Virus record (IMG/VR): IMGVR_UViG_3300047552_001845
Location: 1-44,678 of that record
DNA: 44,678 bases
DNA from: a virus
Reading direction: 5' to 3' (one strand)
Shown: positions 5,549 through 41,023 of the stretch, piece by piece
How positions within the stretch are numbered: position 1 is the first letter of the stretch
How the letters are laid out: every line of letters begins with the position of its first letter
Made by a program: the position numbers and the translations under genes
Notes under the pieces: model-generated
Databases searched by the model: none
Told to the model about the DNA's origin: nothing
Seen by the model: only the letters and a program-made list of their open reading frames with translations

Positions 5549-5652
5549 AAAACAAAGGTGCTTTCTTTGCCACCACCGTACTGGCCATTCCAGCAACAAA
5601 AAACCAAACCAAAAAACTAATAACCAAACTAACAAACTAAACTAATAAGAAA

Positions 5653-5686
5653 TAAAAAGGAGACCGCACGATAGCACGGTCTCCGT
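5653..5686 (-). terminator. strong intrinsic terminator
   Basis: GGAGACCG...CGGTCTCC hairpin followed by TTTTTATTTC. No gene precedes it, which implies that some minus-strand RNA arises in the geneless stretch to its right. Confidence 0.75.
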
Positions 5687-6058
5687 ATTAAGCAATTACT
5701 AAGAGAGTAATTAGGAACATCTTAAAAGCCAGTTAGGAACGGTTCTTAGAGCGAAGTGTTATATGTAGTAAGAGATTTTAGGGGGCGGGCGGCGCCAAAC
5801 TAAACCAAATACTACGTTTCTTAGAAGAAATCTATCTCCTCTACAATAACAGTAAAGGAAACAGACTAAGAGTTTAGAAAAGGTTTGGTAGCATGTTGTC
5901 AGTGCTAGCGTTTAGAAAAGGTGTCGGTATTTGGAAACGCATCGGTGCTTAGAACGGTGTTGTCGGTGCTTTGTCGGTGCTAGCAGTGCTTAGAAACGTG
6001 TTAGCGGTGCTAGCGGTGCTTTGGACCACGCACGACCCTCACACATTAACCTAATTAG

Positions 6059-6084
6059 AACCTTCTATTATTATAGGAGAAGGT
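6059..6084 (-). promoter_or_regulatory. hairpin with promoter-like core
   Basis: AACCTTCT...AGAAGGTT forms an 8-bp inverted repeat. On the minus strand its centre reads CCTATAATAATAGAAGG, resembling the recurring element. It could start the RNA ended by the terminator at 5653-5686. Confidence 0.35.
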
Positions 6085-7108
6085 TTAGTTTTAGGTTCCT
6101 TAGTTCGGGGTCAGTGGAAAGTTAGAGCAGCTCCTGAGCCGCTCAACAAACCTCTTTAACCATTCTGATAACGCTTTCTAAACATCAAATACTTTTATAG
6201 GTGTTTTTAGAACGAAATCAATAGTAATGATGATAAAAAAGCGCAACTCACTGAGGGTGAAAGGAAAAGGCAGCTTTAACCTAGTATTAGATTAGTATTA
6301 GATAAGTGGCGCCCATCTCCACCATCGTCAATGGGCTATCTCCGCGTACCACTAAATGCTGCGTAGGGGTAAAAACACATGAATTAAAATATAGGGCATC
6401 ACCTCCATGGGTGGCATTTCCATCTTAATGAGGTTTAGTACCAAAGAAACTACATTATCAAAGAAAAGGCAAAAAAAGGTATCTTAGTAAGGGTGGCGAA
6501 GCACAGACGGGCGCGGCACCTAATAAAATTCATAAATGGTTTCGTAGGCGTTTTTAGAACGAAATGTGGTTAGGCTTTCGATTCTTAGTAATGTCCCACT
6601 ACGCTCAGAGCTCGCCTAATGCGGCTCGCTCTTCGCTGCTCAGTACGTTACGCTGTTAGCTTTAGTACGAAAGGTTTCCATTATGGGGATTGTTAGGTTA
6701 TTAGGTGCCGCCGCGCTTCGCTACGTACGAGCTTAGTACGCAGTACGAGCTTAGCACGAGTGCGGTTCTTAGTACGGGGGTACGTTCTTAGTACGCTGTA
6801 CGAGCTTAGTACGAGTGATAGCTTCGGCGCCAAACCCTTATCTTCCCACTAACGGAAAAACAATTACCATCCACTACGTTCTCAGCTTCGCCGGATTACG
6901 GCTCGCTGTTCACTGCTAAAACGTTCGCGCCCCCACTTATTAGCGTAGATGCTACTAAGCGTACACGTACTGAAGTGCCGCTATTAGTATTTATCTGCTC
7001 CTACTATATAAGACGAGATTTTTTTCCCAGTGTGGTATATTTTCTGAAAATTTTTGAAAATAATTTCTGAGGCGCTGGACACCACAGATGCGCGCTATAG
7101 TACATAAT

Positions 7109-7150
7109 ACAAAAGGCCGGTCAGATCTCACCCTGACCAGCCCTTTTAAA
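7109..7150. terminator. possible bidirectional terminator
   Basis: AAAAGG..GGTCAG-loop-CTGACC..CCTTTT inverted repeat with A- and T-flanks, just upstream of the plus-strand sigma-like gene. It may instead be a leader structure of that gene. Confidence 0.5.
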
Positions 7151-9868: not shown

Positions 9869-9952
9869 TGGGACAGGTGGGACTTGAACCCACACGCTCT
9901 TACGAGCAGCCACTTTTGAGGCGGCTTCGTCTACCAGTTCCATCACTATCCC
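9869..9952 (-). tRNA. tRNA-Leu (anticodon CAA)
   Basis: The 84-nt cloverleaf has acceptor GGGATAG/CTGTCCC with discriminator A, a D-arm with CTGGTAGACG, and an anticodon stem GCCGC/GTGGC with loop CTCAAAA (anticodon CAA, reads UUG). It also has a long class II variable arm (CTCGTAAGAG) and a canonical T-arm GTGGGTTCAAGTCCCAC. CCA is not encoded. It is the only fully canonical tRNA in the window. Confidence 0.92.
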
Positions 9953-9953
9953 A

Positions 9954-10068
9954 TTAGTGGGGGACGCAAGGATTCGAACCCTGTACGTGCGCACGTGCTT
10001 GCTGACAGCTGCTAAACCAGACGTGCACATCTGGCGCTCCAAGCAAGCGTGGCTCCCAGACCACTACA
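9954..10068 (-). ncRNA. tRNA-like element with canonical T-arm
   Basis: TAGTGG (10063-10068) can pair with CCACTA (9954-9959). The 3' side has a canonical T-arm (CAGGG TTCGAAT CCTTG), but the rest does not fold as a normal cloverleaf. A long arm pairs CTTGCT with AGCAAG and encloses CCAGA..TCTGG, and a possible variable arm is ACGT GCGC ACGT. No anticodon arm is clear. It may be a degenerate class II tRNA or a tRNA-like RNA. Confidence 0.5.
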
Positions 10069-10070
10069 TC

Positions 10071-10090
10071 TCTCCAACTTCTATAATAAA
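10071..10090 (-). promoter_or_regulatory. recurring element, copy 8 (GAAGTTGG type)
   Basis: TTTATTATAGAAGTTGGAGA, directly ahead of the tRNA-like element and tRNA-Leu. Confidence 0.8.
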
Positions 10091-10091
10091 G

Positions 10092-10127
10092 GAAAGAAAG
10101 AGCAGCAGCCGGCACCACCGCCCTGCT
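10092..10127 (-). terminator. intrinsic terminator
   Basis: AGCAG..CTGCT stem followed by CTTTCTTTCC, ending the unit with the tRNA-like elements at 10145 and 10252. Confidence 0.55.
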
Positions 10128-10144
10128 ACTACTCCTTCTGTTTC

Positions 10145-10217
10145 GCGTAAGGCGGGGAACGATCCCGCAACCAAGAAGCTCTCGCCTCTCGCATTTTACC
10201 CATTAAACTACTTACCC
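10145..10217 (-). ncRNA. tRNA-like element without normal anticodon loop
   Basis: 73 nt. The acceptor pairs GGGTAAG with CTTACGC (one mismatch). The D-arm GTTT..AAAT contains GGG as in tRNA-Gly, and the T-stem GCGGG/CCCGC is perfect, but its loop is ATCGTTC rather than TTCRANY. The anticodon position folds best as a 7-bp stem with loop CGAGAG and has no U33. It looks like a tRNA fold without decoding function. Confidence 0.5.
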
Positions 10218-10251
10218 TACTCGGACGACTGGTTCTGCGTTAGCAGATTAC

Positions 10252-10320
10252 GGCACCGCCTGGAATCGAACCAGATTCTCCACCCTTACGGCTGGCGTTC
10301 TCCCGTTTAACTACAGTGCC
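10252..10320 (-). ncRNA. tRNA-like element without normal anticodon loop
   Basis: 69 nt. The acceptor GGCACTG/CGGTGCC pairs over seven positions. A D-arm GTT..AAC contains GGG, and the T-arm TCTGG TTCGATT CCAGG is canonical. The anticodon arm is 16 nt, CCAGCC-GTAA-GGGTGG, most simply a stem with one mismatch capped by a GUAA tetraloop; no loop with U33 and a readable anticodon can be drawn. tRNA-like; isotype undetermined. Confidence 0.55.
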
Positions 10321-10445: not shown

Positions 10446-10465
10446 CCTCCAACTTCTATAATAAA
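10446..10465 (-). promoter_or_regulatory. recurring element, copy 9 (GAAGTTGG type)
   Basis: TTTATTATAGAAGTTGGAGG. No start codon follows the GGAGG. About 125 nt downstream, after a domain with TCGCG/CGCGA and CGGC/GCCG stems (10321-10445), come two tRNA-like elements. Confidence 0.75.
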
Positions 10466-18567: not shown

Positions 18568-21500
18568 CTACTTGGTCGGGGTCCCAGGAGGGAGCGCAGA
18601 AAGACGGCCCTCACTACCACTACCACTATCCTTTTCAGGAGTTGCGGTCTTGACCTTGGTGTTACTCAAGGTCATGTAATAGTTGCTGTACTCCGACACG
18701 TCGGTACCGCTCAGCTTTTCAAGGCTTTGCGGGTTGCGACCGATAGCTAGCCGGAGCCCAGCGGCGCTGATCGCCTGCTGCACCACCTCCACTGGCACTT
18801 GGAAGGGGACATCGCGCCCTTTCTCGTACGTCACGCCGTACACGTTGGGCGTCGAGAACTCTCCCTGCTTCCGCCACGCATCCAGAGTGTCCCTCAATCG
18901 CTTGAAGGGCTCGGGGTCGTTAGCAGCCTCAGAGACAGCCATCTTGACCTTCAGTGCACAAACGCGGCAGTTGACGAGCGGATAACCAGTTGCCTCCTTG
19001 TGCCAGTCGCTGATCCAGGGCAATAGCCACTCATCCAAGTAAGCTGCGTTTTTCAACGCGCCCTTGTGAGTCTCCGGCACTCGCGTCTGGATATCCTTGG
19101 CAGCCTCGCTCTCTTCAGCCATTATGCTCAAATATTTCCAGGCACTTGAGACCATCCGAGTGACCTTGAAGCCAAGGCTTGCCTTGCACTGGGACGCGAC
19201 CCCCAGTGCAGCCATAAGCGGTGACCCGTCGAAGACGAGGTTGTAAGCATGGGAGACCCGCGACTTGAGGGCCGCATCAGTGTTGAAGCCGGGTTGTTTC
19301 CGGATATCTTCACTGATGATATAGCCTTTCTCGTGCGAATAGCCCAACCTGACACACTCAAGCGCCGTAAGCGGCCTGCGCTCCCTGGTGTCGTCTCTCT
19401 CGAAGTCACCGATAACCCAAGTCCGGAACGCGGACAGGGCAGCAGCCAGCGCCTTGCCGCCATCATCGTCGCCACCAAGCGCCTTGTTAGACGCGGCAGC
19501 AGACCTAATGGCATTCAGGAGCTTACCCAACTGCTTCTCAAATTCGACCTCCAAGTACGTAAGGTCGCCATTCGCATTGGCCATGCGAAGGGGAGCTGCG
19601 CTCACTCCCTTCTTGAAAGATCCCGATCCAAAGCGCGCGTCATACGCCTTGGCAAAGGTGCTACCGAACTCCTGGTAAAGGAGCTGGCTTTCGGGATCGA
19701 TCATCGCCAGGGAGTTCCAAACCCCAGCGGCGGCATCGTGGGCCGCATGGATCGGGGACGCGAGGGTCACACCGTTCGCACGCAGCCAGTGAGTGTAGAG
19801 GCCGTCCTTCTCCCTACACAAGAGCCAGCGGGCCGGATTTACCCGACCCTTATCCTGATCTGGCCCATGCCACTTCCACGCCACGGGGTCGAGCTGGTAG
19901 TCGCTCTTGGAGTTCCCCTTGACGCACTCTTTCACCGCAGCCCAGATGTTGCTGCTGGCTCCAACCCGAATTTCGGAGTCCTTTTCAGAACCCACTGGAG
20001 CGGGAGGAGGCGTGGTAACCCCCTTCTCCATTTGCCGTGCCCTCTGAATGGCAGAGAGGGCCGACGATCCCTTATTACTATTGGTATCCGCCGCCTTTGC
20101 AGGAGCAGGCGCCTCAGGGATCTTACCAGCCGGTACGAATCCCGGCATATTGGGGAGCTTCTCGATTTGCTCGAACTCCCCAGAGAGAACCTTACGGAGC
20201 AGGCGCCCCATAAGCTCGCTTGCGTCAGCGAGAGCCATCGACTTTTCATCGGCCTTCAGGAGAGGCGCGTTGACAGTCTCGAAGCCGTTCTCGGTGGTGC
20301 GGGACCATTCCGCCTGCGCTAACAGCCGAGCCAACTGGGGAACAACAACCTCCTTCTTGAGTTGGTCGATCGCTCCCTGCGTCAGAACACTGTAAGCCAG
20401 CGGCAGTCCCTCTAGGTCGAAGCTGTACGGGGTTTCCTTACCATCCTCCTTGAGAGTGACAGTAATCGACCCACCAGCCCGCGCAACACCAAGCGCAACC
20501 ATCATCTGGTTACACATGATGCCGACCGCACCCTGATCCTGCATGAGCAACTCACGGTAGTAGCCCACACGATCAGTATTGAAATCTGCACCCTTCGCCG
20601 CAGATGATGGCTCGAACTTGTACAGGGCGTTGCCATAGTAGGCCCTGTGGTTCTTGACAAGCTCTACCAGCCGCTTGTCATAGCTAATGGCCACCATGTC
20701 GCCATCGTCGTCCCCATTAATCTTCGCGACATCATGCGGGTGCATGTAGATCGCGTGCTTACAGTAGACCGGGGTTAAAGTCTCTGAAGCTGCTTCGGTT
20801 TCGGTTTTCTGGGTTCCTTCCTCCTCAGGGGCCTCGTTGGCCCCGCTTTCCTTGTAGTAGATGACGTGACGCTCAGAGGGCGCGACTGATACCAACGCCA
20901 AATTACCCTGGTGATGCTGATGCGGGCTACGCCAGATGACGGCGTAAGAGCCTACCTCCTTTTCAGGATCGGCGCCCACGATGACACACGTGCCAGGTTG
21001 CACGGCATCATCCATCAGTAGGACCTTGATGTGTCCATCGATCCCCAGACCGGCGAAGGCTTGGAAGAGGAGCTTGGAGAGCTTAGCCTCGACCTTCGCC
21101 CGCACGTTCGGGAAACCGATCGGATCCAGGTCATAGTGGCTAGACAGCTGAGGCCGCCCGCACTTAGACACCTTCTCCTTAGACACGAGTCCATCGACCT
21201 TACACCACTCCTTAGAAGGCTTAGCGCAAGCGCCATCCTTAGAGGAGCCGAGGGTCTCAGGGGCAGGTACCTCACAATCAGCGCTGAAGACGGGATCCGT
21301 CTCTTTGCACCGACCGAGGTTATACTGCGTTGCCCGAGCTTCCCTCATCGTACGGTTCATCTGATCGCAGAGATCAACCGCCGCTCTGATGTCGTTATCC
21401 GCTTTAGCGACGGCATTGATCAGCCGCTTGCGGAAGTTAGCCGGGGTCAGAGTCTTCCCAGCTCGATCGCTAGTCAGGGCCTTAATGGCATCGCGCGCCA

Positions 21501-22905
21501 TAGCCTCTGCCAGCTCGACATTCTCGGGGGTAGGGGCGAGGTGCGCCACCCACTGATACCCGAGCTGCTGCGTCCCTACCTTGCTGAGAATCTTGTGGAT
21601 CCCCAACACGGAGTGGTTGGTGGTCGTATCACCAGGCAGGACGCGGTTTTTACCCGCGCCCTTAACGCAGTTAACATTGATCCGGACAGCTGGACCATCA
21701 AATCCCAACTTAACCGGATGCAGCAGCCCCTTACTAAACGCGATATAGGGTTTGCCCTCCGCGTCGTTCCGGGGATCAACGCACGCATACTGGAGACAGC
21801 TTTCGCCATGCTCAGCAAGCAGCGTAGCCCACTGCGGGTGGTCAATGTTCCACCCGTAAGAGGCACCATCGGCACCAGTGATCTGCACGTCATCACCACC
21901 GTAGTAGTGGATGTCGAGCCCCTTGATCGCCGGCACCTTTAGGAAGGCGTTAAACTTCGACGCGTAGCCAGCAGGTGCAGCTCCGGTCTTGAACGCCCTC
22001 ACAAGCAGCCTAAGGTAGCTGCCTCCCTTGGGATCCTCGCTATTGATGAGCGGCCTCTCCATCGCCCACTTAGCTCCCCCTCCTTGGCCACCGAAGAGTG
22101 CGTATCCATTTCGGAACAACATCTTCAGATTCGGTGACGACGTGCGCTGGGCGGGAGACCCAATCCCCACGTCTAAGATCAATTTCCCTCCGTCTAAATC
22201 CGTCGGCATCATCCGGTTACCGCTGAGACGGATCAGCTGGGCCGGAGTCATCGCCGGAAAGATTGTGTCCAGCAGGGTAGACTGAGCATTGAAGGATCCC
22301 AAGACGAAGTGTTCGCCCGTGACCATCGTGCTCCGCGTCCCACTGATCGCGTCGAGGACCTTCTTCATCCGCCTTTCGACCTTGGTATCCGGAGCGGGTT
22401 TCCCCTTCTCCATCTCCAGAGCCTTCTTGACGAACGAACGGACGGCGTCCAGCACCTTACCCGCTACGTCATCCTTCTTAGAGAGATAGATTGTGCGCTG
22501 CTCGGCAACCGGCTTAGCCGTTCCATGAGGGTCCTTGAGTCCTTCCAGCAAATCAACCGCCTCTTTGCAGAGACGGCTAATGCCGTACGCTTGCTTAATG
22601 GCAAGCTCATCTTCCTCTGACAGAGCGGCGTCGGTCGTAACCTCAGCCCCCTTGCCAAACGGTATGTCATCGTCAGAGTAGAGCGGGGCATCATCCCGAT
22701 AGTCTCCACAACCGACGGCATCAGGATCGAAGCCGGGATCATCACCGGTATTGTCCTGGCTAGTCTCCTTTACCCGAGGCGCACTGATAGCGGGCAATGG
22801 CCCCGCCTCATTGATGTGCACCTCGCCCGACAGCGAACGGATAGAACCGTCGTCAGTCGAGGGAGTGGTTCCGTACGTAGCCATTTCGGCAACCTTGTTA
22901 GACAT
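18568..22905 (-). CDS. putative single-chain two-barrel RNA polymerase
   Basis: A 1445-residue protein. Residues 730-741 read NGDDDGDMVAIS, matching the metal-binding loop of RNA polymerase beta-prime (NADFDGDQMAVH) and the DxDGD loop of QDE-1-type and phage YonO/crAss-like polymerases; catalytic Asp would be 732, 734 and 736. Upstream, AIYMHPHDVAKI mirrors the conserved LHP segment, and RSPHQHHQGN (R659) mirrors RAPTLHRLG, as expected in the second double-psi barrel. A candidate first-barrel region has DGASYG (D346) and FSKGLL (K392). The N-terminal 100 residues are acidic and probably disordered. I infer DNA-dependent transcription of phage genes. The remainder matches nothing I can name, so a divergent RdRP-like enzyme remains possible. 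Start preceded by AAGGAAG. Noticeably more GC-rich than the late genes; co-transcribed with 22955. Confidence 0.65.
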   Translation of the reverse strand: MSNKVAEMATYGTTPSTDDGSIRSLSGEVHINEAGPLPAISAPRVKETSQDNTGDDPGFDPDAVGCGDYRDDAPLYSDDDIPFGKGAEVTTDAALSEEDELAIKQAYGISRLCKEAVDLLEGLKDPHGTAKPVAEQRTIYLSKKDDVAGKVLDAVRSFVKKALEMEKGKPAPDTKVERRMKKVLDAISGTRSTMVTGEHFVLGSFNAQSTLLDTIFPAMTPAQLIRLSGNRMMPTDLDGGKLILDVGIGSPAQRTSSPNLKMLFRNGYALFGGQGGGAKWAMERPLINSEDPKGGSYLRLLVRAFKTGAAPAGYASKFNAFLKVPAIKGLDIHYYGGDDVQITGADGASYGWNIDHPQWATLLAEHGESCLQYACVDPRNDAEGKPYIAFSKGLLHPVKLGFDGPAVRINVNCVKGAGKNRVLPGDTTTNHSVLGIHKILSKVGTQQLGYQWVAHLAPTPENVELAEAMARDAIKALTSDRAGKTLTPANFRKRLINAVAKADNDIRAAVDLCDQMNRTMREARATQYNLGRCKETDPVFSADCEVPAPETLGSSKDGACAKPSKEWCKVDGLVSKEKVSKCGRPQLSSHYDLDPIGFPNVRAKVEAKLSKLLFQAFAGLGIDGHIKVLLMDDAVQPGTCVIVGADPEKEVGSYAVIWRSPHQHHQGNLALVSVAPSERHVIYYKESGANEAPEEEGTQKTETEAASETLTPVYCKHAIYMHPHDVAKINGDDDGDMVAISYDKRLVELVKNHRAYYGNALYKFEPSSAAKGADFNTDRVGYYRELLMQDQGAVGIMCNQMMVALGVARAGGSITVTLKEDGKETPYSFDLEGLPLAYSVLTQGAIDQLKKEVVVPQLARLLAQAEWSRTTENGFETVNAPLLKADEKSMALADASELMGRLLRKVLSGEFEQIEKLPNMPGFVPAGKIPEAPAPAKAADTNSNKGSSALSAIQRARQMEKGVTTPPPAPVGSEKDSEIRVGASSNIWAAVKECVKGNSKSDYQLDPVAWKWHGPDQDKGRVNPARWLLCREKDGLYTHWLRANGVTLASPIHAAHDAAAGVWNSLAMIDPESQLLYQEFGSTFAKAYDARFGSGSFKKGVSAAPLRMANANGDLTYLEVEFEKQLGKLLNAIRSAAASNKALGGDDDGGKALAAALSAFRTWVIGDFERDDTRERRPLTALECVRLGYSHEKGYIISEDIRKQPGFNTDAALKSRVSHAYNLVFDGSPLMAALGVASQCKASLGFKVTRMVSSAWKYLSIMAEESEAAKDIQTRVPETHKGALKNAAYLDEWLLPWISDWHKEATGYPLVNCRVCALKVKMAVSEAANDPEPFKRLRDTLDAWRKQGEFSTPNVYGVTYEKGRDVPFQVPVEVVQQAISAAGLRLAIGRNPQSLEKLSGTDVSEYSNYYMTLSNTKVKTATPEKDSGSGSEGRLSALPPGTPTK

Positions 22906-23820: not shown

Positions 23821-24057
23821 CTAGATCATGTCGCCGTAGACGCTCTCCCAGTCGTCCTGGGCCTGCAAGATGTCGGGGCTCACGCAGCCCATCTGGGCCC
23901 AGAGGATCCACTCGACGCGGGAGATCCGCTTCTTCAGCTCGTAGATCTCCTCGTCAAGCTCCCAGAGGAGACCCTCCCCACGAGCAAACTCGTCGTCGAG
24001 GGCGTACCAGCGCTCGAGCTCCAACTTCTCGAGCTTCCCGTACAGGTAGTTGAGCAT
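23821..24057 (-). CDS. coiled-coil protein, 78 residues
   Basis: MLNYLYGKLEKLELERWYAL, continuing through a heptad-like helix (LLWELDEEIYELKKRI) to an acidic C-terminus (QAQDDWESVYGDMI). Start behind TTGGAG. No family recognised. Transcribed from a 125-nt structured leader. Confidence 0.65.
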   Translation of the reverse strand: MLNYLYGKLEKLELERWYALDDEFARGEGLLWELDEEIYELKKRISRVEWILWAQMGCVSPDILQAQDDWESVYGDMI

Positions 24058-24183: not shown

Positions 24184-24194
24184 CCACTAAAAGG
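24184..24194 (-). promoter_or_regulatory. second recurring motif, copy C
   Basis: CCTTTTAGTGG followed by AGATGG; opens the leader of the 78-residue gene. A TAATAT box lies about 10 bases upstream. Confidence 0.45.
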
Positions 24195-24213: not shown

Positions 24214-25437
24214 GAAAAAGAAAAAGGAGACGCGGCCAGAGCCGGTTCCTAATTCTTGCGGGCTCATCTCCCGCCAAAGCGCAGTTACCTGCACGTTTTA
24301 AGCCCGATCCTTCGGGCCGCTAAACAGTCATAATGCACCTCCTTTGTTAGTTGTTATTGAGTGGGGCGTTTGATGCCCAGCTGTTACAGAACGCTTTTCA
24401 CCAGCTTACAGCAATGCTGGCGGCTCGGGGATCGGCATCCTCCTAACCTTTTTGGGCCGCAGCCCGGAAGTACTACTTCCTAACACGCGGTTTTAAGGCC
24501 GCTAGATAATTAGTCGTTAGATAGGCTGTCAATGCAACCGAAACTCCAACTAACTAATTACCACACGTGCGTAGTTAACGCACGCATCACTATGCCGGCT
24601 CACGCCTCGCACCGCTTTCACAAGCGATACTATTGTGCCTATCCAGACTCAAGGCCAGCCAAGGCTGCAACCGAATCTTTCAAGTAGGGTACTTTTTCAA
24701 GTCCCATGACATAATGGCTATTTAGTGGGTGGAAACATATCAGCGGACGAGCCGCCTCTACACGTGCAGTCCTTACTGCTACGTATGAAATTTCCACACA
24801 CCTGGTTAGCTTCCCACGCACCTAGTTTACTCGCATAGTGACCGAAGCCAGCTAGTAGTTCTTTGATGCGTCGTGCTGACACACGAGCTCTTTTGTATTC
24901 CGATTTCTGGGTCGCTCTCGCGCCTTCCAACCGGCCCAATCACTAGACGGACTCAGGGATTGCTCCCTTCGTACGGTGTCGTGTGGCTTAACCGACAACA
25001 AGTGTGGACAAGCGTTGCTGCGCTTTCCCCAATGCTATATTGCCTAGAAGATACCTTTTGACCATAGCCCATGACAGGCGCTCCAATAACGATGATTTCC
25101 TCAAGATCGTTTTGGATTTCTGGTAGCGGCGCCCCTCACAGGGTCACCTCGTTTCCATTCAAGGACAGGCAAGACGTTAGTCGTACCTGGTATCACTCGC
25201 TCCCACTCCACTATTTACTCTATTGGCTATTAACCTTCCAGAGCTTTCGTTAGCTAGCAGGCACTAACAGCTAGATCTCTCACCAATAACTACAGCAGAT
25301 GCGCGTCTCACGACGCGCATTTACCTATTAGTTACCAGGATCCCATCCCAAAGCCGCTATTCTGTTACGTGATTAACAGAGTGCGCACTTCGTAGTCTTG
25401 TTAGTGATATGAAATTCTTATGGGCACACGCCCGACT
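24214..25437 (-). ncRNA. candidate large structured noncoding RNA, about 1.2 kb
   Basis: No credible gene on either strand across 1.2 kb, unusual in such a packed genome. It begins at a second-motif copy (25438) and ends in GTCTCC followed by TTTTTCTTTTTCC. Minus-strand hairpins are plentiful: a 9-bp ATGCGCGTC-GTGA-GACGCGCAT with a GNRA loop (25299-25320); GGAAGT..ACTTCC (24467-24481); GTGCGT..ACGCAC; GGGC-TGCG-GCCC; CCAGC..GCTGG; GGGC..GCCC; GCCCGA-AGGA-TCGGGC; and GCGGG..CCCGC with a 7-nt loop. The size and phage setting recall large ornate RNAs such as GOLLD or ROOL, but I see no sequence match I can vouch for. Near the 3' end lies a perfect ribosome site with a three-codon frame. Confidence 0.55.
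24320..24331 (-). other. three-codon mini-ORF with perfect Shine-Dalgarno
   Basis: AAAGGAGGTGCATT is followed by ATG ACT GTT TAG. AAAGGAGGTG fully matches the usual 16S anti-Shine-Dalgarno complement. It sits inside the large noncoding RNA, just before a stable GCCCGA-AGGA-TCGGGC hairpin. It may be a ribosome-binding decoy or a leader peptide. Confidence 0.5.
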
Positions 25438-25447
25438 CCACTAAAAG
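25438..25447 (-). promoter_or_regulatory. second recurring motif, copy D
   Basis: CTTTTAGTGG followed by AGTCGGGC; marks the probable 5' end of the large RNA. Confidence 0.45.
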
Positions 25448-25738: not shown

Positions 25739-25863
25739 TAGAAAAAGAAAAGGACAAGATGACGAGCTGTGAGTACATGCTAAGACAGAAGCACGTACCG
25801 CTCTTACGTACAGCTTTCATTTGACCCCGGTGGGCTCAAAACGGCACTACCAACGACATTACT

Positions 25864-26082
25864 ATACCTATAACCAGGTACCAAACGCCCTTTTTATTAC
25901 ATAAGTATAATTCCTTCTAACTAACAGGTACAAAACGCCCTCATTATAATTTTTATTATTATCATTATTATGTCTAAAAGCAACAAACGCCATATACGTA
26001 TAATTACTTTTAGTCATCCAGTACAAAACGCCCGATTTTAAATTTACCTATAATTCCTTTTAGCTAACAGGTAAAAAGCCCC
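25864..26082 (+). promoter_or_regulatory. late control region with four repeats
   Basis: Four similar units at 25864-25890, 25905-25940, 25998-26033 and 26048-26082. The fuller form is TATAATTCCTTTTAG followed by CTAACAGGTACAAAACGCCC; a fifth fragment CAACAAACGCC lies at 25981. TATAAT suggests a -10 box and AGGTACAAAACGCCC a binding or start site. They stand between divergent gene blocks, directly ahead of the late genes. Confidence 0.65.
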
Positions 26083-26129
26083 TTTCTAATTTTAAATTTT
26101 AAAAATTTTAAACAACCCCTAATAGCACC

Positions 26130-37863: not shown

Positions 37864-39345
37864 ATGGCAACCAGTACCACCATTATTACACTAGAGGAGC
37901 TAGAAGCTCTCACACAAGCATACGAAGCAGCTTACGTAGAACAGATAAGAGATACGGCGCCACTATTAGTTAGGAGTGTAAACGATCTATCTGTTGTTGT
38001 GGATGGAGTAGAAAAGACACTAAGTCTCTACAGCTCCACCAATAGCAGCCAACCACAACAAATGACTGGAGAGGCCGGGCCGTTCTCTTCTACATCTACT
38101 CTTATTGGTAAAGGAAAGAATGCCCACTATAAGGTTGTTGCCGGCGTCACTATCCCAGAAACAGCCTTCTCTAAGTACGTAGAGAAGTGTCTTAGTTGTG
38201 ATGGAAGATTCCTATTCGAATTCGAGATGCTGCCAGACGGAGCGTTCTTCCTTCAGCTAGGTAATATTCTTGATGAAATAGAGGGAGCGATCGGCGCCCT
38301 TAATAAAGCATTTTCTCCAAACACTAAGCTAATAGAACAGCTATGCGCCTTTCTTAACATGCTAGGCTCTATAGCATGTCCCCAAGATCTAATAGCTCTA
38401 GCAATGGCTATTCAGCTAATGATCAATAGGAAGATGACTTATGCTCTTCAGATCAAACTCAACTGGTGGGGTCTATTTGGATTCGCCATTAAGTGGTTCA
38501 TAGAGACTCTGTCTTCCCTAATAGATCAACTAGCTCAAATGCTAGAGGCTCCATTGAAATGCTTATTAGCCGCGCTCACAGCTGGTCTAGAAACAGTGAG
38601 AGCTTTTGATGCGGCATTCACTACCGCCTCCAATACGCCCAATAAGGCGGCGCTAGCCATCGACCCTAAGACGCAGCGAGTAACGTTCTCTCTTAGCGGA
38701 GACAGTATATTTGATACCAAGTATGAGGAAGTAGCTGTAGCTCCACCTAACGTACCTACTGAACTCGTAACGGGTTTAGAAAGAGGAACTTCTATAGCTG
38801 CTATTAGCGCGGGCGGTATAAGAACAGTTCCGGATTCAGCTGCCGCGTTTGACGCAATTCAAAACGTAGCAATGGCCGCCATACCTAACATCTACGATCT
38901 ATCATTACCGGAACAACTAGTTCTTCTAAACAAAACAGCTATAGAAGAAATAGAAGCTCTACGTCTCAAAATACAAGAGGCGCTTGGTTCGGTGAAGCGC
39001 CTCGTCTCTAATAATAAAATACTAGAGATACGCCTTATGCTAGATATCAAATTCCTAATGGGTATTGCCGGCCTCCTTGTTTACTTAGGATCGCTAGACA
39101 GTCTCTCCGATCTATGTAGGCCAGAGAACGCGCCCAACCTAACCAAAATCATAGAAGACATGACTGGTGCAGAAGACGTACAGCTAGTACGATCCTCTAC
39201 TACTAATAGCAAATTTGATGTCTCTTACTCTCTTAATGGTAAGACCAATCAAACATCTATTGCTTCATGTCTTGCTGCGCGAGAAGAAGCTGAATCTGCA
39301 GCCAAGAATCTGGATGCGCTACTAAGAGAATTATCTAATGGATAG
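37864..39345 (+). CDS. hypothetical late protein with hydrophobic helices, 493 residues
   Basis: MATSTTIITLEELEALTQAY behind AAGGGG. Long helical protein with hydrophobic stretches around residues 203-225 (WWGLFGFAIKWFIETLSSLI) and about 400 (FLMGIAGLLVYLGSL). Cys pairs are few. It ends overlapping the portal start by eight bases, so expression is coupled. Possibly a virion or portal-associated protein; no motif recognised. Confidence 0.55.
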   Translation: MATSTTIITLEELEALTQAYEAAYVEQIRDTAPLLVRSVNDLSVVVDGVEKTLSLYSSTNSSQPQQMTGEAGPFSSTSTLIGKGKNAHYKVVAGVTIPETAFSKYVEKCLSCDGRFLFEFEMLPDGAFFLQLGNILDEIEGAIGALNKAFSPNTKLIEQLCAFLNMLGSIACPQDLIALAMAIQLMINRKMTYALQIKLNWWGLFGFAIKWFIETLSSLIDQLAQMLEAPLKCLLAALTAGLETVRAFDAAFTTASNTPNKAALAIDPKTQRVTFSLSGDSIFDTKYEEVAVAPPNVPTELVTGLERGTSIAAISAGGIRTVPDSAAAFDAIQNVAMAAIPNIYDLSLPEQLVLLNKTAIEEIEALRLKIQEALGSVKRLVSNNKILEIRLMLDIKFLMGIAGLLVYLGSLDSLSDLCRPENAPNLTKIIEDMTGAEDVQLVRSSTTNSKFDVSYSLNGKTNQTSIASCLAAREEAESAAKNLDALLRELSNG

Positions 39346-41023
39346 AAAACTAATGGAATTGATTGGTTTGGATCCCGCCGGCTCTTCTACCTCTACTAAA
39401 GACGCTACCTCTGCGGTAATGCGTACGAAAGTCGTTAAGTCACCAATCAAAGAATACGGCGGGCGCCATAGAGAATACTTCTACAAACCAGAATACGACT
39501 TCGCAGACATAGAGCGAGCACAAGATGCAGACTCCTACATTGCTCAGTCTATTAAGAAAAAGAGTCAGAAGTTTCTATTAGCGGGCTACGAGTTTATTGG
39601 AGAGAACCAAAAAACAGTAGAGTACATTGTTAAGAGAATAGCCCAGCTAGAGATCGCTCAACAGAAGCCATTTCCCATTCTACTGCTTCAAACTGTAGCT
39701 GACGTAGAAAGGTTTCAGAATGCTCTATGGGTTATTAAGAGAGATGCAGAGAACTCGGGCGGCAAGCCTTACAGAATCAACGGTACAGAAATAGATCCAA
39801 TAGCAGGTATTTTCATCCCGCCCTTTGCTTCGCTCCAGTGGAAGCACAACAAGAGCGGCAAACTTACTAAAATCAAACAAGTAATAGAAGGTGTTGAGAA
39901 GCCACCTGAGTGGAAAGCAGAAGACTGCATTCACTTCTATATGAATAGAAGACCAGGCTACACGGTAGGAAGCCCCACTCTGTTCCCTGCCATCGACGAT
40001 GTTAAGCTATTACGGAAGATTGAAGAGAATGTAGAAGACCTAATCAGTTCTAATCTCTTCCCCCTATACCACTATCAGATTGGTAATGAGAAGTATCCGG
40101 CGGCCCGTAACATAGGAAGCGGTCTAAGTGAAGAAGAGCAAGTAGCCGCTCAGCTTGAGTACATGCCTGCAAGCGGCGTCTATATCTCTGACTATCGTCA
40201 CAAGATAGAAGTTTTAGGTTCTGAAGGCAAAGCTCTCCGTATCGACTACTACCTGACTTACTTCAAGAACCGCGTATTCAGTGCTCTAGGGATGAGCGCC
40301 ACTGACTTTGGCGAGTCCGACTCCAACAATAAATCAACTGCTGGTGTTCAGAGTAAAGCCCTAACAGAGAGCGTAGAGTCGATGCAGCAACTAATGAAGT
40401 GCTTTATCGACACGTACCTAATACGTCCTCTCTTATTGGAATCAGACTTTAAATTCGATGTAATGGCGCCCGAGAACATCGTTGAAATTCAGTTCGGCAA
40501 GATCGATATCAACGAGCAGAGCGTCAAACACAACGAAATCAACCAACTCTATCAGTCTAATATGCTTACGCACGAAGAAGCGCGTAAGATGATTGGCAAG
40601 CGCCCAATCAAAAATGAAGAGTCTCTCAACTACAACAAGTTCCCCAATAGAGGAGAACTAGCTAGAGAGGCCGCAGCAAAAGCAGGGGCAGCGGGCTCCA
40701 ACAACACCTCCAACCAACACGGCTCATCTAGAAGGAAGTCATCTAAAGATGAAGCTCTAGATAAGATTAGATCCGTCCGTTCTCTGTCGGAACTGCACGA
40801 TCTTCTAAAAGAAGAACTTATTATTAGGAGATTGGTCGCGGCGACATCACACCAATGGTCTCATATTAGCGATATTTTAGATAAAGTAGAAAACGATCTC
40901 GACAATCTCTTAGAGCCTATTGCTATTTATAGGGAACACGAAATCGAACTACCTATCGAAGATACGATCTTCCTGCTAGAAGATGCAATCTTAGACTTAA
41001 TGCAATTACAAGAAGAAAACTAA
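39338..41023 (+). CDS. portal protein
   Basis: 561 residues. The head-to-tail connector signature is seen in order: YDFADIERAQDADSYIAQSI (clip-side start), IPPFASLQWKHN, then HFYMNRRPGYTVGSPTLFPA with PTLFPAIDDV leading to a long helix, and AlaLeuGlyMet-type VFSALGMSATDFGE ahead of the crown/stem region with Gln- and Glu-rich helices. Length suits a portal. It lies between terL and the protease/capsid genes, the usual order. The C-terminal 100 residues form an extra coiled coil (LSELHDLLKEELIIRRLVAA). Confidence 0.85.
   Translation: MDRKLMELIGLDPAGSSTSTKDATSAVMRTKVVKSPIKEYGGRHREYFYKPEYDFADIERAQDADSYIAQSIKKKSQKFLLAGYEFIGENQKTVEYIVKRIAQLEIAQQKPFPILLLQTVADVERFQNALWVIKRDAENSGGKPYRINGTEIDPIAGIFIPPFASLQWKHNKSGKLTKIKQVIEGVEKPPEWKAEDCIHFYMNRRPGYTVGSPTLFPAIDDVKLLRKIEENVEDLISSNLFPLYHYQIGNEKYPAARNIGSGLSEEEQVAAQLEYMPASGVYISDYRHKIEVLGSEGKALRIDYYLTYFKNRVFSALGMSATDFGESDSNNKSTAGVQSKALTESVESMQQLMKCFIDTYLIRPLLLESDFKFDVMAPENIVEIQFGKIDINEQSVKHNEINQLYQSNMLTHEEARKMIGKRPIKNEESLNYNKFPNRGELAREAAAKAGAAGSNNTSNQHGSSRRKSSKDEALDKIRSVRSLSELHDLLKEELIIRRLVAATSHQWSHISDILDKVENDLDNLLEPIAIYREHEIELPIEDTIFLLEDAILDLMQLQEEN

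Follow-up and report, generated by a model that had tools for sequence, protein, structure and literature searches.

The giant RNAs of phages count among the largest in bacteria for which no function is known. GOLLD (RF02032), phage-encoded and highly structured, exceeds 800 nt in many of its members, lies near tRNAs or structural genes and has conserved GAAA-type loops, and ROOL is a large ornate RNA of phages and prophages with no known protein partner. GOLLD has been described as a 14-mer RNA cage and ROOL as an RNA-only multimeric cage (PMC12286853). Large RNAs located in ORF-less gaps have precedent: the most abundant transcript of phage ICP1 is an RNA of ~800 nt from such a gap (PMC7567579), and lnc002 of phage K (37679-38832) is an intergenic RNA of ~1.15 kb on the minus strand (PMC9241854).

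The locus described here belongs to an IMG/VR virus record of 44,678 bases, the whole of which was analysed (the window); its features are collected in Table 1. The nearest portals among annotated phages are those of Moorella phage MTATph1, Bacillus phage KLEB27-3 and Acinetobacter phage ME3, with 28-34% identity, and portals 40-45% identical to that of the window are found in numerous uncultivated phages, whose records reach ~160 kb. The RNA stretch sits in a divergent region, with rightward structural genes (from 26130) on one side and the leftward polymerase gene on the other, and tRNAs are present on the same strand as the stretch, at 9869-10320.

Table 1. Positions of the candidate RNA, its predicted parts and neighboring features, in window coordinates unless a contig is named.
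Feature	Position	Strand	Remarks
Candidate large structured non-coding RNA, ~1.23 kb	24214..25443	minus	No coding frame, no protein family, tetraloop-capped stems, fold energy
Start motif CTTTTAGTGGAG, putative promoter or start-site element	25436..25447	minus	Recurring TTTTAGTGG
Closing helix P1, 5' strand (predicted)	25421..25438	minus	Pairs with 24359-24379, probability 0.91-0.99
Closing helix P1, 3' strand (predicted)	24359..24379	minus	Partner of 25421-25438
9-bp stem, GUGA cap, AUGCGCGUC-GUGA-GACGCGCAU	25299..25320	minus	Pair probability 0.99
5-bp stem, GCAA cap	24955..24968	minus	Pair probability 0.99
Domain closed by 19-bp helix	24836..24945	minus	Pair probability 0.94-1.00
9-bp stem, GUGA cap	24609..24630	minus	Pair probability 0.99
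Partly open linker after P1, with Shine-Dalgarno AAGGAGGUG and mini-ORF AUG-ACU-GUU-UAG	24322..24358	minus	Last base of mini-ORF 24321
6-bp stem, GUAA cap, within 3' hairpin string	24279..24294	minus	Pair probability 0.89
T tract TTTTTCTTTTTCC, presumed transcription end	24214..24226	minus	Sole T runs of at least 4 in the unit
Next start-motif copy	24184..24193	minus	Precedes 78-aa gene, shortly beyond T tract
78-aa gene	23821-24057		In unit opened by next start-motif copy, directly downstream of RNA unit
52-aa gene unit	25675-25517	leftward	Ends in strong intrinsic terminator 25513-25468, before RNA start motif
1445-aa protein, QDE-1-type single-chain RNA polymerase family	18568-22905	minus	Assigned by GDDDGD and homologue model
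Tailed-phage terminase	32563-34917	plus	
Portal	39338-41023	plus	
ORF-less unit starts (near)	18253, 17734, 17544, 17205, 16967, 15719, 15443, 15283	minus	
ORF-less unit starts (near)	14439, 13799, 13689, 10777, 10598, 10452, 10077, 9502	minus	
GAGCCCACCGGGGT in relatives	L189:15139, L194:14280, L187:13521		

Across 24.1-25.45 kb the codon scores of all six frames resemble those of other non-coding DNA and no frame has coding character, and the ORFs inside the stretch (51-73 aa) have no PHROG match; nor was any open frame found in it whose codon usage is that of the phage or which matches a family, either of which would point to a coding or decayed gene. This is in accordance with the initial annotation, which had seen no gene here; a conserved coding frame, which it had named as evidence against an RNA, was found neither by codon scores nor by PHROG. 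That this is the longest gene-free stretch of the genome, as was also claimed, is not clearly so, since 5636-6993 is equally long (1358 against 1364 nt when no ORF of 75 aa is allowed). The minus strand of this second long gene-free stretch, taken as 5636-7150, folds with z -9.8, partly due to terminators, and tetraloop enrichment is absent from it. Alternative genetic codes were tried to open frames in the RNA region and gave nothing indicating a gene. An Rfam search returned nothing for the stretch at gathering level and, at E<=10, chance-level hits only, all outside it.

The structure signal is found on one strand. On the minus strand there are five GNRA-capped stems against a mean of 0.55 in shuffles, with none of 500 dinucleotide-preserving shuffles reaching five, and two UNCG-capped stems against 0.2 (p 0.01), while the plus strand of the stretch has no stem capped by either. 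Fold energy gave z -7.9 on the minus and -3.5 on the plus strand (24 shuffles) and, for a slightly different interval, -6.4 and -4.8 (12 shuffles). Without its 3' end the minus strand has z -5.4, an excess stability of 15.5% over shuffles (0 of 60 as stable), and the excess in nine coding windows of equal length, from -2 to 10%, is in every case lower. Energy alone is moderate evidence, because coding controls of equal length reach z -5.1 (range from +0.6; minus-strand coding windows -4.3 to -5.1). The stretch has the strand-specific structure beyond chance that marks a large structured phage RNA. The dense structure reported in the initial annotation is therefore real, with two corrections: the signal is specific to the minus strand, and the number of perfect hairpins of at least 6 bp is ordinary (23 against 17.5 in shuffles, p 0.14). 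An orphan sequence in a divergent region, with direct repeats nearby (25878-26101), could also be attributed to a decayed coding sequence or to a DNA element that sits between divergent operons, for example an origin or control region. However, neither predicts strand-specific structure, no residual protein match is present, the cumulative GC skew has no turning point at the stretch and the repeats read as promoter copies TATAATTNCTTYTAG, and we regard it as very unlikely that this is not an RNA gene. That the stretch is a large functional structured RNA is, in our estimation, highly probable.

In the predicted fold the RNA's 5' end is joined in a 17-bp helix, P1, to a site 1.06 kb downstream, and a partner as good is found in 2 of 300 shuffles. 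Several confident domains lie inside P1, including the one closed by the 19-bp helix, and 3' of the linker a string of hairpins is followed by the T tract. The minimum-energy fold holds four of the five GNRA stems (probability 0.89-0.99), and for the fifth, near 25139, a longer helix is a competing alternative. The 9-bp GNRA-capped stem that had been pointed out earlier exists and is the one at 25320-25299. Neither a complete 11-nt tetraloop receptor nor a complete T-loop was found by scanning. The RNA would fold into a compact domain of ~1.08 kb, closed by P1 and probably held by GNRA tertiary contacts.

The RNA unit begins just past a recurring motif, TTTTAGTGGAG, at 25446-25436. The window has four copies of TTTTAGTGG where 0.4 would be expected, and three of them are minus-strand copies at 23.7-25.45 kb. 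A related form, TATAATTNCTTYTAG, with six matches in all against 0.7 expected, precedes the structural genes on the plus strand (25906, 25999 and 26049) and has a minus-strand copy at 24201-24187; the copy before the RNA (25447) retains the CTTTTAG part only. The start motif may be a phage promoter and, judging from these copies, the RNA and the structural operon may use the same promoter class. Tracts like TTTTTCTTTTTCC end other units of this phage, and no textbook terminator hairpin precedes the one at the end of the RNA. Transcription would run leftward from the RNA's own phage-type promoter at ~25445 to this tract and would produce one transcript. Motif and T tract had both been seen in the initial annotation with their orientation reversed, the motif being the high-coordinate start and the tract the low end. 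Other units of the phage are short (70-400 nt) and the 78-aa gene lies directly downstream, which would also suit a set of short RNAs, or a long leader for this gene, instead of one RNA. On the other hand, the inside of the unit has neither a class-1 promoter motif (TTTATTATAGAnGTTGGAGG) nor a T run of at least 4 that would suggest several short transcripts, which were once named as evidence against a single RNA; between the stretch and the 78-aa gene lie the T tract and the next start motif; and the predicted closing helix spans 1.06 kb. Short RNAs or a leader are, in our view, quite unlikely.

The linker has a mean unpaired probability of 0.65, compared with 0.35 overall, and its AAGGAGGUG is a 9-nt perfect Shine-Dalgarno sequence; a match of such length at start-codon spacing is found in 16 of 2000 shuffles. 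The mini-ORF, which was noticed after the fact, would offer a concrete contact with the ribosome. The lambda bar minigenes are comparable to a ribosome-binding minigene whose effect would be ribosome recruitment or drop-off of short peptidyl-tRNA. If the mini-ORF were such a minigene and the active part of the RNA, the large fold would be its stabilising 5' leader, and the proper spacing of the Shine-Dalgarno sequence and the location in the partly open linker directly past P1 are in accordance with this. However, a 1.08-kb fold with tetraloop-capped stems far exceeds the needs of a leader, no homologue was found that would show conservation of the mini-ORF, and its late recognition also counts against it, which makes an active minigene unlikely.

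The window phage appears to hold an unusually large number of other candidate RNA genes. The promoter-like TTTATTATAGAnGTTGGAGG is present in 37 copies on the minus strand between 4383 and 18266 and in none on the plus strand (0-2 in shuffles). These copies split the region into tiny transcription units, approximately half of which have a Shine-Dalgarno sequence and a small gene directly after the motif, while ~16, of ~70-520 nt, lack an ORF and resemble RNA genes, several of them ending in T tracts. Rfam matched none of the ~16 ORF-less units except for tRNAs in those starting near 10452 and 10077. Two adjacent ORF-less units, 10790-10611 and 10611-10465 (minus), share a 51-nt repeat at 73% identity and have similar 3' ends, and look like paralogous RNAs. 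The 1445-aa protein itself has no Pfam or PHROG match. Its GDDDGD is invariant in five homologues from relatives, two of which are weakly matched by Pfam RdRP (best E 0.0024), and a model of one of the homologues, of moderate confidence (mean pLDDT 58), matches QDE-1 (E ~1e-10) and phage RNA polymerases (E ~1e-5). It would be possible to combine all of this into a new giant phage RNA family with RNA-only assembly and with ribosome capture by the exposed Shine-Dalgarno mini-ORF, in a phage whose RNA-gene-rich strand is read by its own QDE-1-type polymerase, but so complete a picture is improbable.

In collections from which near relatives of the window's record may be missing, no homologue of the RNA stretch was found by blastn against annotated phages, by DNA searches of 69 whole records of related phages, by nhmmer against 202 loci or when viral contigs were scanned twice for exact patterns; hits of 14-30 nt were at chance level. 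Relatives were obtained with portal alignments, polymerase or terminase alone being unsuccessful as bait. The class-1 motif is absent from the relatives tested, and a search of the collection gave four single matches, approximately the chance number. The same divergent region is marked in several relatives by a conserved element, GAGCCCACCGGGGT (~25820-25841 on the minus strand of the window), which may serve as a promoter or hairpin signal; structured patches were seen in this region of relatives, and no equivalent RNA was recognised. A more distant relative, L049, has a GOLLD RNA (L049:1992-2436, 205.9 bits) ~7.5 kb upstream of its portal gene and on the portal strand. Other RNAs observed in this material are tmRNA genes in contigs of related phages (L086:15307-15657 and L192:19571-19921, the latter contig coming from a bacterial bin and yet having a phage portal) and a type II hammerhead ribozyme match of 56 bits in a relative phage (L097:807-875, minus).

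From all these results we consider it probable that the stretch encodes one large leftward structured RNA of ~1.2 kb, which may act as a GOLLD/ROOL-like scaffold or container. Absence of coding, structure confined to the minus strand and boundary motifs at both ends are seen in the sequence itself. In favor of this explanation are the strand-specific capped stems, the 15.5% fold excess, P1, the lack of a frame or family and the boundary motifs, together with the other same-strand ORF-less units, the GOLLD of L049 and the RNAs of ICP1 and phage K. Against it are the lack of a homologue, the good folding of minus-strand coding windows, the lack of a textbook terminator hairpin and of an equivalent RNA in the same region of relatives. 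The RNA would accumulate during infection and serve as a scaffold or container, probably touching ribosomes, as proposed for GOLLD and ROOL; for a large functional structured RNA at this locus, such action has slightly less than an even chance. If the explanation is true, the presence of an unrelated giant RNA here and of GOLLD in a distant relative would suggest that such RNAs have evolved repeatedly in large phages, and a common role of giant phage RNAs would become testable by comparison.

Comparison with the known large RNAs gives both likeness and difference. The initial annotation had proposed a check with the GOLLD, ROOL, HEARO and OLE models and had held that a sequence match to them was not evident, and indeed the stretch matches none. 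At E<=10 and with permissive filters there is no match to the GOLLD model, which describes the conserved 3' domain (gathering score 150 bits) and which, as a positive control with the same library, finds the RNA of L049; ROOL, OLE and HEARO are not matched even at E<=10, and group I and group II intron models have no match in the stretch. The resemblance to GOLLD and ROOL that had been suggested persists in size, structure and setting, and membership by Rfam models does not. A strongly diverged GOLLD or ROOL member would be in accordance with size, structure and phage setting (~1.23 kb, with terminase and portal in the window) and with the GOLLD upstream of the portal gene in L049. Yet besides the lack of model matches, the window RNA lies on the strand opposite the structural genes, unlike the GOLLD of L049, and its nearest tRNAs are ~14 kb away, and we find such a member highly unlikely. 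ROOL is similar as a large ornate RNA, but the window RNA has twice the typical ROOL length. With the ICP1 RNA it shares large size, an ORF-less gap, a large tailed phage and the lack of an Rfam family, and with lnc002 of phage K its length, intergenic location and minus strand; neither has DNA similarity to the window RNA in the phage collection searched, and lnc002 adjoins tRNA genes. In the relative L196 an unannotated ORF-free stretch of ~1.2 kb (L196:7692-8888), near the polymerase gene and on its strand, has a fold of z -9.4 against -2.9 on the other strand, but it has no sequence similarity to the window RNA, lies downstream of the polymerase gene and, from an internal T tract, is probably two RNAs. 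Kinship with GOLLD and ROOL would be one of size, structure and setting only, and the stretch is best read as a candidate new large phage RNA, a member of neither, for which a GOLLD/ROOL-like action, though unproven, is reasonable.
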